Assembly: GCA_027858295.1 (NCBI GenBank)
Contig: JAQICZ010000005.1
Coordinates: 1-54,543, forward strand
Source: Nanobdellota archaeon
GTDB lineage: Archaea; Nanobdellota; Nanobdellia; Pacearchaeales; GW2011-AR1
Length of the DNA: 54,543 nucleotides
Direction of reading: 5' to 3'
In this document: piece by piece, positions 22,945 to 32,966 of the stretch
Numbering within the stretch: position 1 is the stretch's first letter
How the letters are laid out: each line of letters begins with the position of its first letter
Translations under genes and position numbers: made by a program
The notes under the pieces: model-generated
Seen by the model: only the letters and a program-made list of their open reading frames with translations
What the model was told of the DNA's origin: nothing
Database searches by the model: none

Positions 22945-22985
22945 TGTCAAGTTTTATAAAGTCTAAATTCTATATATTATTAACT

Positions 22986-23035
22986 TTCCCGGGGGTTATA
23001 GGGGCTTCCGGGACCTTTTCTTTTTATTATTATTT
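22986..23035 (+). terminator. Hairpin terminator after ftsZ
   Basis: CCCGG and CCGGG arms around a 15-nt loop containing GGGTTATAGGGG, followed by a T-rich run CCTTTTCTTTTTATTATTA, 45 bp after the ftsZ stop. Confidence 0.6.
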
Positions 23036-23185
23036 TTAATTTTTATTGTATTATATTGTAAGTATGTAATTTTGATAATCAGGAGATTTATCAAAATAAC
23101 ATATTACAATCTAATGCTAATAAAAAGTAAAACTAAGAATAAAAAGCTAATTTTTGGATTTTTTTTAAATTGTTCTATAAAAATT

Positions 23186-24367: not shown

Positions 24368-24540
24368 AAGGCAGATTGATATGTTGAAGTATTCGTTCGC
24401 GCTGCGTGCATGTGGGGTGTGTTTGTCTTTGGTGGGGGTTTGTGTTTATTTTGGTAGTATCTACCCGCCTTAATTGTTGGTGTTGGTATAGAAATGGGTA
24501 GTTGGAAAGTTATTTTAGTTTTAGTATACCTATTAATCCC
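24368..24540. repeat. Family B/C repeat
   Basis: GGCAGATTGATATG right after the stop at 24367, then a C end TTCGTTCGCGCTGCGTGCAT (24393) followed by GTGGGGTGTGTTTGTCTTTG, which recurs exactly near 26365, and CTACCCGCCTTAATTGTTGG, a decayed G arm. Confidence 0.65.
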
Positions 24541-24579: not shown

Positions 24580-24666
24580 TCAAAGACCAATTATTCCGCC
24601 GTCGAGAACTTTATTTTTATCATAAAGAACTATTGCTTGTCCTTCTGAGACTCCGGTGATTGGTTT
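24580..24666 (-). pseudogene. Duplicated 3' end of mnmA
   Basis: On the minus strand this reads KPITGVSEGQAIVLYDKNKV then LDGGIIGL and stop, nearly identical to the C-terminus of MnmA (KPITGVSEGQAIVLYDKTKV, LGGGVIGF) encoded at 28329-28415. About 87 bp of mnmA-derived DNA survives here. It is fused, out of frame, to the 3' end of the gene starting at 25397. Confidence 0.85.
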
Positions 24667-25397
24667 GTTTGAGATAGATTTATTTCATTCAATCTTAGAC
24701 CTAGGGATTTTACTCTTCCGTATGATTTTGATGGATGATCAAAGAACATTGGTGGGGAAGGAGTAATATAAAGGCCGTTTATTGAAAATCTTTCAAAAAT
24801 CATAAAGAATTCTAGAGGACATTCATCTGAATATGGTCTTTGATTAAATTTTGTGAAAGATACTTCTTTCCCATAGATTTGGTCTATATTTTTCAAGTTG
24901 TCGGTTCCTAATAATTTTTTGTAAAGTTTTGAATCAGGGGAAGTTGCAATATGATCATTTGAACCTACGAGATTATGATGTTCTATATATTCATCATTCA
25001 TCCACTTGTTGTGAATAATCTGACCTTCGCCTTTTGCATTATATCTGGTGGTTGAATTTGTTAAAAGTCGATCATCGGAGATAATCGTTGCCAATATGTC
25101 TTTTAATTTTCTTATTTCTTTTTCGTCTTTGTTTGTTTGTTTTAATTCAAATACTGATGTGAAAAGTGCATTGTGGAGTGGAAGGTCTCCTGTATAAAAA
25201 TTTCCTCTTTCTTTTGATTTTTTCATTTCGTTTATCCAAGTAGAAATATCAAGATATGCAATTCCTGCATATTTTTTGTCTATTTTTCTCTCATCAATTA
25301 AATCTTTTTTTATGTCTAATGCAGATGCTTTCCCTCTATATTGCAAATTATTTATTCTCCAGAAATCTTTGTGGTTTTCAAATTCTAAGGTTTTCAT
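24630..25397 (-). CDS. Hypothetical protein with an mnmA-derived tail
   Basis: A 255-aa soluble protein of unknown family. Visible: KDFWRINNLQYRGKASALD at the N-terminus, LVGSNDHIATSPDSKL near 140 and PLEFFMIFERFSINGLYITP near 195. The final 12 or so residues (NQSPESQKDKQ) are translated from the duplicated mnmA 3' end in another frame, so the original C-terminus was replaced by recombination. TATA and ATG 25397 suggest it is still expressed. Confidence 0.65.
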   Translation of the reverse strand: MKTLEFENHKDFWRINNLQYRGKASALDIKKDLIDERKIDKKYAGIAYLDISTWINEMKKSKERGNFYTGDLPLHNALFTSVFELKQTNKDEKEIRKLKDILATIISDDRLLTNSTTRYNAKGEGQIIHNKWMNDEYIEHHNLVGSNDHIATSPDSKLYKKLLGTDNLKNIDQIYGKEVSFTKFNQRPYSDECPLEFFMIFERFSINGLYITPSPPMFFDHPSKSYGRVKSLGLRLNEINLSQTNQSPESQKDKQ

Positions 25398-25480: not shown

Positions 25481-26194
25481 ATGGATAAGTTAATTAGTGT
25501 TTTGATTGAGCATGGGTTTGAGGAAAGAAGTGCTAAGATATATCTTTATCTTTTGAAGAATGATGATTCAACTGCTCTTGAGATTTCTAAGGGTGTTAAT
25601 ATTGATAGGACTACTGTTTATGATCTTCTTGAAAAACTTTTTTCTAAGGGGTTGGTTTCTTCTTTGCAGATGAATGGTTCTAGGAGGTTTAGGGCATTGG
25701 GGGCTGAAAAGCTTTTGGTTCATTTTAAGGAGAAATATGATTCTTTAGAGGGTATTTTGCCTGATTTGAAAAATTTGGAGCTTGAGACTGTTGATAAAGT
25801 TAGTTGTGAGTTCTTTATCGGGAGAGATGGGTTGAAAATAGTTTTGAAAGATTTGATTAATTGTGGAAAGGATTACAAGGTTATTGGAATTAGAAAAGAA
25901 TATGAGGAACTTTTGGGTTATTTTAATGAGCAGGGGATAATTAAATTGGAGAACTTTAATGTTAAGGAAATTGCTATTTTGGAGAAGGGTTCTAATGTGA
26001 AAAAGGTTAAGGGTGGGAAGTATCGTTATTTGGATAAGAAGTTAATGTCTCCAATTACAACTTTGATTTACGGGGATTATGTTATTTTTATTATTTGGAA
26101 TGAACCTTATTATTCTGTAAGGATTAAGAGTGATTCTTTTGTAAATGGGCAGTTGGAGTATTTTGATTTGTTATGGGGAATAGCTAAAAGGTGA
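25481..26194 (+). CDS. TrmB-family transcriptional regulator
   Basis: A 237-aa protein. N-terminal winged helix: GFEERSAKIYLYLLKNDDST, ALEISKGVNIDRTTVYDLLE and LFSKGLVSS match the TrmB pattern. The C-terminal domain (about 100-237) is the effector part, TTLIYGDYVIFIIW near 190 and LLWGIAKR at the end. Full-length and intact, unlike the copy at 9646-10378. TATA CATTTAAATAAATTG lies at about 25449-25463. Target genes unknown; no sugar transporter adjoins. Confidence 0.85.
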   Translation: MDKLISVLIEHGFEERSAKIYLYLLKNDDSTALEISKGVNIDRTTVYDLLEKLFSKGLVSSLQMNGSRRFRALGAEKLLVHFKEKYDSLEGILPDLKNLELETVDKVSCEFFIGRDGLKIVLKDLINCGKDYKVIGIRKEYEELLGYFNEQGIIKLENFNVKEIAILEKGSNVKKVKGGKYRYLDKKLMSPITTLIYGDYVIFIIWNEPYYSVRIKSDSFVNGQLEYFDLLWGIAKR

Positions 26195-26507
26195 GAGTTT
26201 ATTTTTTGGTGAGATGGTTAATTGTGATTGTAGTGTTGAGTTTTTTTGATATTGCTTCGCGAGCTCATTTATTTTGAGGCAATTTAATTATCCTTCGTAA
26301 TGCCATTCACATTGTCATATGGCTTGCCACAAATTCTGCGGAATTTCTGTATCGGTGCGTGCATGTGGGGTGTGTTTGTCTTTGGTGGGATTTTATTGGA
26401 TTAGAGAATTGAGATTTATTTTATTTTGAGTTGTTCAATTTATGTCTGCCAGCGCAGCGTATAATATTATGTTTTTTATTGCTGAGCTTGCGAAGGTTTT
26501 ATTTATT
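26195..26507. repeat. Decayed family C repeat region
   Basis: CTTCGCGAGCTCATTTATTT near 26255, AATTATCCTTCGTAATGCCA near 26284 and a C end CGGTGCGTGCATGTGGGGTG near 26353. TTTATGTCTGCCAGCGCAG at 26441 matches 7581. No gene seen. Confidence 0.6.
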
Positions 26508-26783
26508 TTAATGATTAAATCCTGGGGCATAGTTTAAATCATAAGCTGATCTTCTTTTGGGCTCTCTAATTTGTGGTGTTGAATATTTTGAGCCATGATT
26601 AAATCCTGGGGCATAGTTTAAATCATATGCCGATTTGTTTAATTGTTGGGAATCAATTATTTGTTGTGATAAAATTAAGAATTCTTTTCTTGTTAGTTTT
26701 TTTGTAGAATTTTCCTTTACTGTATCTTCAACATGATTCATATTTTTATTCAGATTCAATACTTTATATGTTTTTATGTTCAT
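26508..26783 (-). CDS. Small protein ending in two copies of SAYDLNYAPGFNH
   Basis: A 91-aa protein. The first 50 residues are polar and helical (LTRKEFLILSQQIIDSQQ). Then KSAYDLNYAPGFNH, a linker GSKYSTPQIREPKR, and RSAYDLNYAPGFNH as the exact C-terminus. The two DNA copies (26511-26551, 26595-26635) are nearly identical, so the duplication is recent or selected. Leader-like N-terminus plus repeated C-terminal peptide resembles a precursor peptide, but no modifying enzyme is nearby. A short binding-motif protein is an equal option. Confidence 0.6.
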   Translation of the reverse strand: MNIKTYKVLNLNKNMNHVEDTVKENSTKKLTRKEFLILSQQIIDSQQLNKSAYDLNYAPGFNHGSKYSTPQIREPKRRSAYDLNYAPGFNH

Positions 26784-26852
26784 ATAGGTTGTTTTTGTTT
26801 TTAGGTTGGAGATTAATTATGATGGTATGCTTTTAATAATTGTTGCACTCAC

Positions 26853-26891
26853 GAAGATTTTAAGCCGCCTCTAGACAGGCTTAAAATCTTC
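26853..26891. terminator. Perfect 14-bp hairpin
   Basis: GAAGATTTTAAGCC (26853-26866), loop GCCTCTAGACA, GGCTTAAAATCTTC (26878-26891). It lies between the peptide gene and the structured RNA and is not part of the other repeat families. Could be a terminator, or a folded DNA site. No T-run follows directly. Confidence 0.5.
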
Positions 26892-27112
26892 TTCGTTGGA
26901 GATATTGAATTACGCCTTCGGGGTTCTGGTCGTTTGAGTTTTATTTTTTGGTGGTTTTTTTATTGGATTTAGTGATTGATATTTTTTAAAGTAGGATGGT
27001 GTTTTATAGAATCTGGGGGAGTTATTGATTTTGACATCTAATTTGGTTTTAGGGAATATTTAGTTATTTGTTGCAAAGTTAAATTTATAAGTAATCTAAA
27101 CTATGTTATTAC

Positions 27113-27305
27113 ATTGAGGTCAACAAATTATCAACTAGGATTTAACGTTTTACCAGAAACGTTTACTGTTCAAATCAGAAAGGTAATTTCGTCTTTAATG
27201 CGGGTTTGCATTCTTTTCTTCTGACTCTATGTCTCTCTATAAAGAGCTCTTTATTGAGATTAAACTCGTGGAATGAGCCTAATGCGACTCCTAGTTGAAT
27301 ATAAT
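27113..27305 (+). ncRNA. Candidate structured RNA, unclassified
   Basis: TATA AAATTTATAAG at 27081-27091 predicts a start near 27113. Ends pair: TCAACTAGGA (27131-27140) with TCCTAGTTGA (27289-27298), 10 bp. Inside: AACGTTT / AAACGTT hairpin (27144-27164), AATGC / GCATT hairpin (27197-27212) closed by CAGAA / TTCTG, and a long self-complementary block around AAAGAGCTCTTT (27241-27252) with TCTC / GAGA flanks. A T-rich run follows the closing stem (27301-27326). No open frame of note. RNase P and SRP signature sequences were not found. Confidence 0.6.
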
Positions 27306-27309
27306 ATTT

Positions 27310-28254
27310 TTAAATTTTTATTTTGTAAACCTTTTGTTCTGTTTTGTTTATTTCTTCCATTAGTTTTGCAGTTGCTGATAATCTTTTATTTCCTAGTAAC
27401 TCTTTAATTTCGTAAAGTGTTTTTCCTTGCTCTTCTAAATTTTTAGCATAACCTCTTCTTAAACTTCGAAATTGTAAGTTGGGGTTTTCTTTTAGTAATC
27501 CTGCTTTTTCACAGTCAGATATAAATTTTTTTTGTATAGCTCTTTGTTGCTGTTTAATTGGTAATAATCTAATATGTTCCTCCTTAAATGAGTCATTTAA
27601 AGGGATTATCCTAGCAATTCTAATCGAATCTCCTCTTGCATAGATGGTTCTATTTTTAATATCAATATCTTCTAATCTTAAGTTTGTTATTTCTGATATG
27701 TTTAGTCCAGCTGTGAACGATAAGAAATAGGCTAGGCGGTATTCTCTTTTTTGTGATGCATTCATTAGTCTCATGAATTGTGATTCTGTAATCGTAGGCG
27801 TTACTTTGGAATTATTTTTATCTTTCGGGGTGTGGTAATTGTATTTTGAAATAATAAGGGTTATTAGATTTAGTGATGATTTTAGCATAAATTCATATTC
27901 TTCCTGCGATGTTTTTATATTGCGGTTCTCATGATAATTTAATATTTCAGATAATGCATTAAAATATGTTAGTTCTTCCTTGGTTATTATTTTTGCATTC
28001 TTTAAATATGTCCTATATTTAATATCTGCAAATTTATCATTTGCGTAATTATCTTTATTCTCTTTTCCCCCCAGATCATGTTTTATCATTTCTTCTATAA
28101 TAGCCATAATAAATGTTTTAAGATATGAAGATTGTTTGGATCTTTCTAATGAGCTATCTGGAAGGGCATCTATCAGGTGACTTAATGATTGTTTAAGGTT
28201 GTTATTATGAGTTGCAATAAAACCTTCAATTTTTTCATATTGATTTATTATCAT
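27310..28254 (-). CDS. Tyrosine-recombinase-fold protein without its catalytic residues
   Basis: A 314-aa protein. The C-terminal half has the integrase/Xer layout: YRLAYFLSFTAGLNISEITN (where GLRxSE carries Arg I), LRLEDIDIKNRTIYARG, RIIPLND, FRSLRRGYAKNLEEQG (HxLRH box) and EIKELLGNKRLSATAKLMEE (LGHxxxxTTxxY). Arg I is Asn, the box His is Arg, the LGH His is Asn and the Tyr is Leu; only Arg II remains. The N-terminal 150 residues are helical and not a typical SAM-like core domain. Expected to bind nucleic acid without recombining it. Its 3' end abuts the structured RNA tail-to-tail. Confidence 0.75.
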   Translation of the reverse strand: MIINQYEKIEGFIATHNNNLKQSLSHLIDALPDSSLERSKQSSYLKTFIMAIIEEMIKHDLGGKENKDNYANDKFADIKYRTYLKNAKIITKEELTYFNALSEILNYHENRNIKTSQEEYEFMLKSSLNLITLIISKYNYHTPKDKNNSKVTPTITESQFMRLMNASQKREYRLAYFLSFTAGLNISEITNLRLEDIDIKNRTIYARGDSIRIARIIPLNDSFKEEHIRLLPIKQQQRAIQKKFISDCEKAGLLKENPNLQFRSLRRGYAKNLEEQGKTLYEIKELLGNKRLSATAKLMEEINKTEQKVYKIKI

Positions 28255-28328: not shown

Positions 28329-29519
28329 CTAAAAACCAATAACCCCGCCACCCAAAACCTTGGTTTTATCGTAAAGAACTATTGCTTGACCTTCTGAAAC
28401 TCCAGTGATTGGTTTATCTAGGGTTGCGATTAGTTTTTTGTTTTTTATTGTTAATGTTGTTGGTATTAATTCGCCTACTTGTCTAATCCTTGAAAAGACT
28501 TTTCTTGGGAGGTTTTGTTTGAATTCTTTTTTGTCTTCGTCGATTAGGTGTAGGTCTGTTACTATTATTTCTTGTCGGAAGTTTAGGGGGTGACCTTGTG
28601 GTGCTGCTACTATTATATTTTTTTTGGCATCTTTTCTTGCGACGTACCATTTTAGAACCTGTCCTGTTGATTGGTCTCGGTTTATCTCAAATCCGTATCG
28701 TGGGCCGAGTCTTTGACCAATTGTGTAATAATATATTCCGTCGTGTTCTCCGATTTGTTTTCCTTCGGGGTCTAGAATTTTTCCTTTTTTTGGTTTTATC
28801 TTTTGTTGTAAGAATTCTTTTAGGTTTATCTTTCCGATGAAGCAAATGCCAACTGTACCCTTTTTATTTGCATTTTGGAATTTGTGTTTCTCAGCTATTT
28901 TTCTTACTTTCTTTTTTGTTAGGTTTCCAATTGGGAATAATGTGTGGGCTAGGTCGTTTTGATTTTGACGATATAAGAAATAGGATTGATCTTTTGATTC
29001 ATCTTTCGCTCGGTGCATCTCGTAGACGTAATTTTTAGTTTTTAGTTTTCGGTTCTCAGTTTTTTTTGACGACTGACGACTGACGACTGATGACTTTTTC
29101 TTGATTCTTGCGTAGTGGCCTGTAGCTATGAGATTAATTCCTCTTTTTTTTGCTTCCTTGATGAACATTGGGAATTTAATTTTTTGATTGCAATCTATGT
29201 CCGGGTTTGGTGTTATTCCTTTTTTGTATTTGTCGAACATTTTGTCAATAACCAATTCTCTGTATTCATCTTCAAAATCTAGTGTTATTATTGGGATTTG
29301 AAGTTTAGCTGCAATTTTTAGAGCATGTTCTCTTTCTTCTACCCAAGCACATTGTCCTGTGATTTTATTTTTAGTGTCTGACCAATTTTTCATGAAGGCT
29401 CCGTAAACATCGTATCCTTGTTTTTGTAGAAGTAGGGCTGCTACTGATGAATCTACTCCGCCGGACATGCCAACTAGGACTTTTTCTTTTGGTTTTTTTG
29501 TGAATAGTTTTTTTAACAT
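28329..29519 (-). CDS. mnmA: MnmA tRNA 2-thiouridylase
   Basis: A 396-aa protein. GMSGGVDSSVAALLL (PP-loop) near residue 18, first catalytic Cys in GQCAWVEE near 54, IDCNQKIKFP, ATGHYARIKKK near 135, DQSYFLY near 180, second Cys in VGICFIGK near 225 and C-terminal beta-barrel ending KPITGVSEGQAIVLYDKTKV. It thiolates U34 of tRNAs for Lys, Glu and Gln. Residues about 143-163 (SSVVSRQSSKKTENRKLKTK) come from a 63-bp heptanucleotide tract between ATGHYARI and DQSYF. MnmA is a bacterial-type enzyme found in some DPANN archaea, suggesting ancient transfer. Confidence 0.92.
   Translation of the reverse strand: MLKKLFTKKPKEKVLVGMSGGVDSSVAALLLQKQGYDVYGAFMKNWSDTKNKITGQCAWVEEREHALKIAAKLQIPIITLDFEDEYRELVIDKMFDKYKKGITPNPDIDCNQKIKFPMFIKEAKKRGINLIATGHYARIKKKSSVVSRQSSKKTENRKLKTKNYVYEMHRAKDESKDQSYFLYRQNQNDLAHTLFPIGNLTKKKVRKIAEKHKFQNANKKGTVGICFIGKINLKEFLQQKIKPKKGKILDPEGKQIGEHDGIYYYTIGQRLGPRYGFEINRDQSTGQVLKWYVARKDAKKNIIVAAPQGHPLNFRQEIIVTDLHLIDEDKKEFKQNLPRKVFSRIRQVGELIPTTLTIKNKKLIATLDKPITGVSEGQAIVLYDKTKVLGGGVIGF
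29032..29094 (-). repeat. Heptanucleotide tract inside mnmA (nine units)
   Basis: Plus-strand units TTTTTAG, TTTTTAG, TTTTCGG, TTCTCAG, TTTTTTT, TGACGAC x3, TGATGAC: exactly 63 bp, so 21 codons, which keeps the mnmA frame open. Confidence 0.85.
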
Positions 29520-32893: not shown

Positions 32894-32966
32894 CGACCCG
32901 GGCAGGGCTCGAACCTACGACCTGTCGATTAACAGTCGACCGCTCTACCAACTGAGCTACCGGGTC
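32894..32966 (-). tRNA. tRNA-Asn (GTT)
   Basis: 73 nt, intron-free. Acceptor GACCCGG / CCGGGTC, discriminator G; D arm GCTC...GAGC; anticodon stem GTCGA / TCGAC with loop CTGTTAA and anticodon GTT; T arm GTAGG-TTCGAGC-CCTGC. No encoded CCA. A CGTAT / ATACG hairpin and T-rich DNA follow the 3' end. Confidence 0.95.

Follow-up and report, generated by a model that had tools for sequence, protein, structure and literature searches.

The window analyzed here is a 54,543-nt stretch of contig JAQICZ010000005.1 from a Nanobdellota archaeon (assembly GCA_027858295.1). Within it, next to a gene for a recombinase-fold protein, lies a non-coding stretch that is predicted to fold strongly, and a preliminary description had put this stretch forward as a candidate new structured RNA, read from the plus strand. 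The question raised by the locus is whether the fold belongs to an independent RNA, to the transcript of the adjoining gene, to a feature of the DNA itself, or to nothing functional. The preliminary description overlooked the genomic context, as the stretch apparently forms part of an insertion and adjoins the gene of a recombinase whose active site is gone.

The fold and its statistics

All six frames of 27131–27298 are non-coding, and a hidden or decayed protein gene was rejected for the larger region of 26790–27330, where stops occur throughout all six frames. The preliminary description was right on this point and on much of the architecture: the closing stem of 10 bp is present without a mismatch (27131–27140 with 27289–27298), the minimum of three internal stems is matched by hairpins at 27144–27163, 27197–27212, and 27234–27259 (Table 1), a T-rich end is found at 27304–27324, and the stop codon of the recombinase-fold gene adjoins the stretch at 27310–27312. 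The near-palindrome at 27234–27259, TCTCTATAAAGAG/CTCTTTATTGAGA, matches its own reverse complement.

Table 1. Features at and around the foldable stretch (positions in the window)
Feature	Position	Strand	Remarks
Detached mnmA 3′-end copy, in frame; other insertion border	24582..24666	-	tblastn E 1.9e-9
255-aa ORF, function not assigned	24630..25397	-	family scattered in class
TrmB-type winged-helix regulator	25481..26194	+	within insertion
91-aa orphan ORF	26508..26783	-	40-nt internal repeat
TATA element TTTATAAG	27085..27092	+	plausible, not outstanding
Foldable stretch	27127..27303	-	closing stem and four arms, multi-branch; predicted RNA fold -44.0 kcal/mol, z -4.25
7-bp hairpin AACGUUU/AAACGUU	27144..27163	-	predicted fold
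9-bp arm GAGUCAGAA/UUCUGAUUU	27172..27227	-	two G-U pairs
5-bp hairpin AAUGC/GCAUU	27197..27212	-	enclosed by 9-bp arm 27172..27227
26-bp near-palindrome TCTCTATAAAGAGCTCTTTATTGAGA	27234..27259	either	forms 4+6-bp hairpin
8-bp arm UUAGGCUC/GAGUUUAA	27260..27282	-	two G-U pairs
Closing stem, 5′ arm on minus strand UCAACUAGGA	27289..27298	-	partner UCCUAGUUGA at 27131-27140
Tyrosine-recombinase-fold protein, 314 aa	27310..28254	-	PF00589 8e-10
mnmA 3′ end (intact gene); one insertion border	28331..28415	-	85 nt

Relative to dinucleotide shuffles, the frame of 27127–27303, which was picked after the stem had been seen, folded with a z of -3.38 on the plus strand and -4.25 on the minus strand, and none of 200 shuffles folded as well. 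In a wider frame of 210 nt the z values were weaker (-2.27 on the plus strand and -3.17 on the minus strand). When the 54-kb window was scanned with 726 arbitrarily placed segments of the same length, 12 gave a z below -3.5 and four a z below -4; the fold at 27127–27303 ranks roughly in the top 1% of the window and is not unique.

Two other folds emerged from the scan. The strongest was at 22951–23123, immediately downstream of ftsZ (z -5.6, plus strand). A perfect 14-bp inverted repeat, GAAGATTTTAAGCC/GGCTTAAAATCTTC, is situated at about 26855–26891 in the same non-coding stretch and scored a z of -4.1.

Strand preference

The preliminary assignment to the plus strand was not confirmed when the two orientations were compared. 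For 27127–27303, the centroid structure on the minus strand (-43.3 kcal/mol) is close to the minimum free energy structure (-44.0 kcal/mol), whereas on the plus strand the ensemble is diffuse (centroid -33.6 versus minimum -43.7 kcal/mol). Four G-U pairs, two each in the arms 27260–27282 and 27172–27227, exist on the minus strand only; redrawing the minus-strand helices on the plus strand turns them into A-C mismatches and changes the energy from -43.3 to -31.7 kcal/mol, a loss of 11.6. The mean pair probability is 0.96 on the minus strand versus 0.12 on the plus strand for the arm 27260–27282, and 0.71 versus 0.00 for the arm 27172–27227. Because the centroid lies near the minimum and the G-U pairs are available there only, the models favor the minus strand as the more likely orientation of an RNA, if one exists; the z values point the same way. 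On this strand the fold starts 11 nt past the stop codon of the recombinase-like gene, and it would therefore be part of that gene's 3′ untranslated region.

The promoter proposed for the plus strand fared little better. TTTATAAG at 27085 has the look of an archaeal TATA box, yet its score is not exceptional under a matrix, itself a rough instrument, that was trained on the upstream regions of genes within this window.

Search for RNA families and homologues

Known archaeal RNA signatures had been reported absent from the stretch, and this was borne out. Rfam returned nothing relevant for 26900–27500, either at the gathering threshold or at E 10, where the sole match was a chance one to miR-430, outside the stretch. 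Neither archaeal RNase P RNA (RF00373) nor archaeal SRP RNA (RF01857) matched here, and the genome has its own copies of both elsewhere, the former at C4:5774-6131 (90.3 bits) and the latter at C48:1665-1928 (E 1.3e-22; 95.7 bits, slightly below the 96.5 cut-off). A tRNA-like element was rejected, as ARAGORN detects only tRNA-Asn at 32894, and a mobile repeat (MITE) was rejected, as the genome holds a single copy. An integron attC site would be expected to carry the core pair RYYYAAC/GTTRRRY at its stem ends; read by eye, the right end GTTGAAT fits and the left end TATCAAC does not, and the fold is multi-branched rather than a single stem.

Comparison by BLASTN with 55 relatives gave no homologue of the foldable stretch. 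A covariance model search across 378 genomes from the class and 181 from the family also gave none, with a model built from a single sequence and strict filters in the large searches, such that a distant homologue could escape. A borderline covariance match in one genome (G289, E 0.002) lies inside a 94-aa ORF and was taken as chance. BLASTN against phages found nothing, and against plasmids just five weak matches (E 0.5). The exact near-palindrome pattern was found in none of the viral contigs; the exact 20-nt hairpin pattern occurs in three.

A claim of a new structured RNA requires either a transcript or homologues in which paired positions have changed in a compensatory way. The preliminary description had named a covariance search of Rfam and an alignment of homologues as checks: the first returned no family match, in keeping with the proposal, while for the second there were no homologues to align. 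What stands of the proposal is thus a foldable non-coding stretch that matches no Rfam family; homologues, promoter, and strand lend it no support.

The recombinase-like gene

The protein encoded at 27310–28254 matches XerA (NF040815) with an E value of 9e-16 in NCBIfam (58 bits, where the cut-off is 220) and the XerC-like recombinase of PDB 4a8e with an E value of 1e-11. Its catalytic residues, read from an alignment with 15 relatives and from one with its closest relatives, are largely gone: Arg-I is replaced by N185, His-II by R263, His-III by N289, and the tyrosine by L298, leaving Arg-II (R266) as the only one kept of R, K, H, R, H, and Y; the GKGxKDR segment is also lost. Because Arg-I, both histidines, and the tyrosine are missing, the protein is probably inactive in DNA recombination today, though its 314-codon frame is open; it may be domesticated or decaying. 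The closest relatives found by whole-genome search are at most 34% identical, and searches of genome and viral collections with back-translated patterns of the recombinase gave no confirmed relative. A single-sequence structure prediction reached a pLDDT of 48 and was set aside.

A strong downstream fold is not a general property of recombinase genes in the class. The stretches downstream of 56 such genes had a mean z of -0.27, versus -0.19 for control stretches, with z below -3 in four recombinase-gene stretches versus one control. The closest relative of the recombinase within the family (L181, on G436 C29) has its catalytic residues present and is likewise followed by strong hairpins (z -4.1), in a different layout.

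Evidence for an insertion at mnmA

A gap of 74 nt separates the recombinase-like gene from the stop codon of mnmA. Because the end of mnmA is duplicated and relatives have an empty site, the roughly 3.7 kb between the two copies, at about 24.6–28.3 kb, is to all appearances an insertion at the mnmA 3′ end, with the recombinase-like gene at its mnmA border. The two mnmA end copies are 82% identical, with 15 differences in 85 nt, mostly at third codon positions. Among the relatives compared at this locus, which belong to the same genus and family, seven (G001, G003, G004, G005, G007, G010, and G026) have mnmA close to nitroreductase and/or ftsZ, with the insert absent; in the window, the nitroreductase and ftsZ genes lie across the insertion from mnmA, past its border at 24.6 kb. 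The genome assembly is incomplete (64 contigs; completeness 88%), and the genome measures 1.35 Mb, compared with 0.6–0.8 Mb in relatives of the genus.

Site-specific recombination is the usual route to duplicated target-gene ends, and we infer it as the mechanism here; the identical arrangement would result if a circle bearing a piece of mnmA had integrated by a single crossover. As the element's own recombinase lacks the needed residues, the insertion would have been made by an earlier active recombinase, by one acting in trans, or by homologous crossover.

No recombinase was found beside relatives of the 255-aa ORF, which fails as a marker of related elements. The 91-aa orphan ORF contains a 40-nt direct repeat (26511–26550 and 26595–26634) that encodes YDLNYAPGFNH twice. 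A further direct repeat of 42 nt, 31 of them identical, occurs just twice in the genome, at 24400–24441 outside the insertion and at 26353–26394 inside it; this placement hints that the locus has had a more complex history.

Interpretation

The explanation that best fits these observations, advanced tentatively, takes the stretch as a 3′ untranslated tail belonging to the recombinase-like gene, within the element inserted at the mnmA 3′ end. It rests on the better-defined fold of the minus strand and on its beginning just past the stop codon. Transcription of the gene would run into the tail, and the minus-strand RNA would then adopt a closed, multi-branched fold, whose most plausible role would be to protect the mRNA 3′ end or to set its position. 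Counted against it are the lack of a U-run after the structure on the minus strand, the lack of a homologue and hence of covariation, and the 56 recombinase genes of the class, whose downstream folds are on average no lower.

A serious rival, though in itself rather unlikely, operates at the level of DNA: the region of 26.8–27.3 kb could control the inserted element through its many inverted repeats, serving as recombinase binding arms or as a replication or excision site, with the RNA fold as a by-product. The 26-bp palindrome, the perfect 14-bp inverted repeat in the same non-coding stretch, and the location within the insertion, adjacent to a recombinase-fold gene, all favor such a control region. 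However, two of the arms are poor as DNA inverted repeats, needing G-U pairs that only a minus-strand RNA can form; the recombinase looks catalytically inactive, and a repeated binding motif was not found.

It is also unlikely, a shade more so, that the fold arose by chance and is without function, in non-coding DNA of a decaying insertion. Decay of the element is evident in the diverged border copies and lost catalytic residues, the fold is not conserved in any genome searched, and about 1–2% of arbitrary windows do equally well relative to shuffles, the frame here having been chosen post hoc. Yet it is uncommon for a z of -4.25 to come with a well-defined ensemble and a closing stem of 10 bp without a mismatch, and an orphan element need not have relatives among the sampled genomes.

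An independent plus-strand RNA with its own TATA box and a poly-T terminator is improbable. While TTTATAAG is similar to the TATA boxes of neighboring genes, a T-rich stretch follows 27304, and the plus-strand z is itself low, the TATA element is unremarkable, the ensemble is diffuse, two of the minus-strand arms fail to form, and no homologue was found. Very improbable indeed is a new class of RNA in this archaeal lineage, represented by an element-borne structured RNA that derives from the tail of the inactive recombinase gene and is bound by the encoded protein or acts together with it.

On the preferred reading, a 3′ untranslated tail, the stretch is a foldable 3′ region, orphan in sequence, that belongs to an integrated element in decay, and protection of the mRNA 3′ end by the predicted fold is a plausible role for it. 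A new RNA class for the stretch is not supported: where the genome is AT-rich, one sequence that folds strongly but has no relatives is insufficient for such a claim. Should the fold prove functional, the RNA would be linked to a recombinase-like gene whose active site has been lost, and would be a sign of mobile-element domestication in a small-genome archaeon. The lesson of the locus is that strand and genomic context should be checked before a structured RNA is claimed.

Comparison with known systems

The accepted evidence for structured RNA classes of bacteria and archaea is homologues with structure-keeping mutations (PMC2864571). Like the candidate RNAs described there, the present stretch is intergenic, strongly foldable, and without an Rfam match; unlike the classes whose homologues were inspected for such mutations, it is one sequence only. 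The recombinase-like protein shares with XerA (NF040815) a fold recognizable by sequence; unlike XerA, it does not keep the catalytic residues, and its score is under the cut-off.

Archaeal integrated elements with tyrosine recombinases have been reviewed (PMC8371274). In contrast to these, the element at mnmA has a recombinase gene that is whole yet without Arg-I, His-II, His-III, and the tyrosine, its border copies have only the reduced identity given above, and its remaining genes match no known plasmid or virus module. In common with them, it carries a recombinase-fold gene at one border, the end of the target gene is duplicated at both borders, and the site is empty in relatives.
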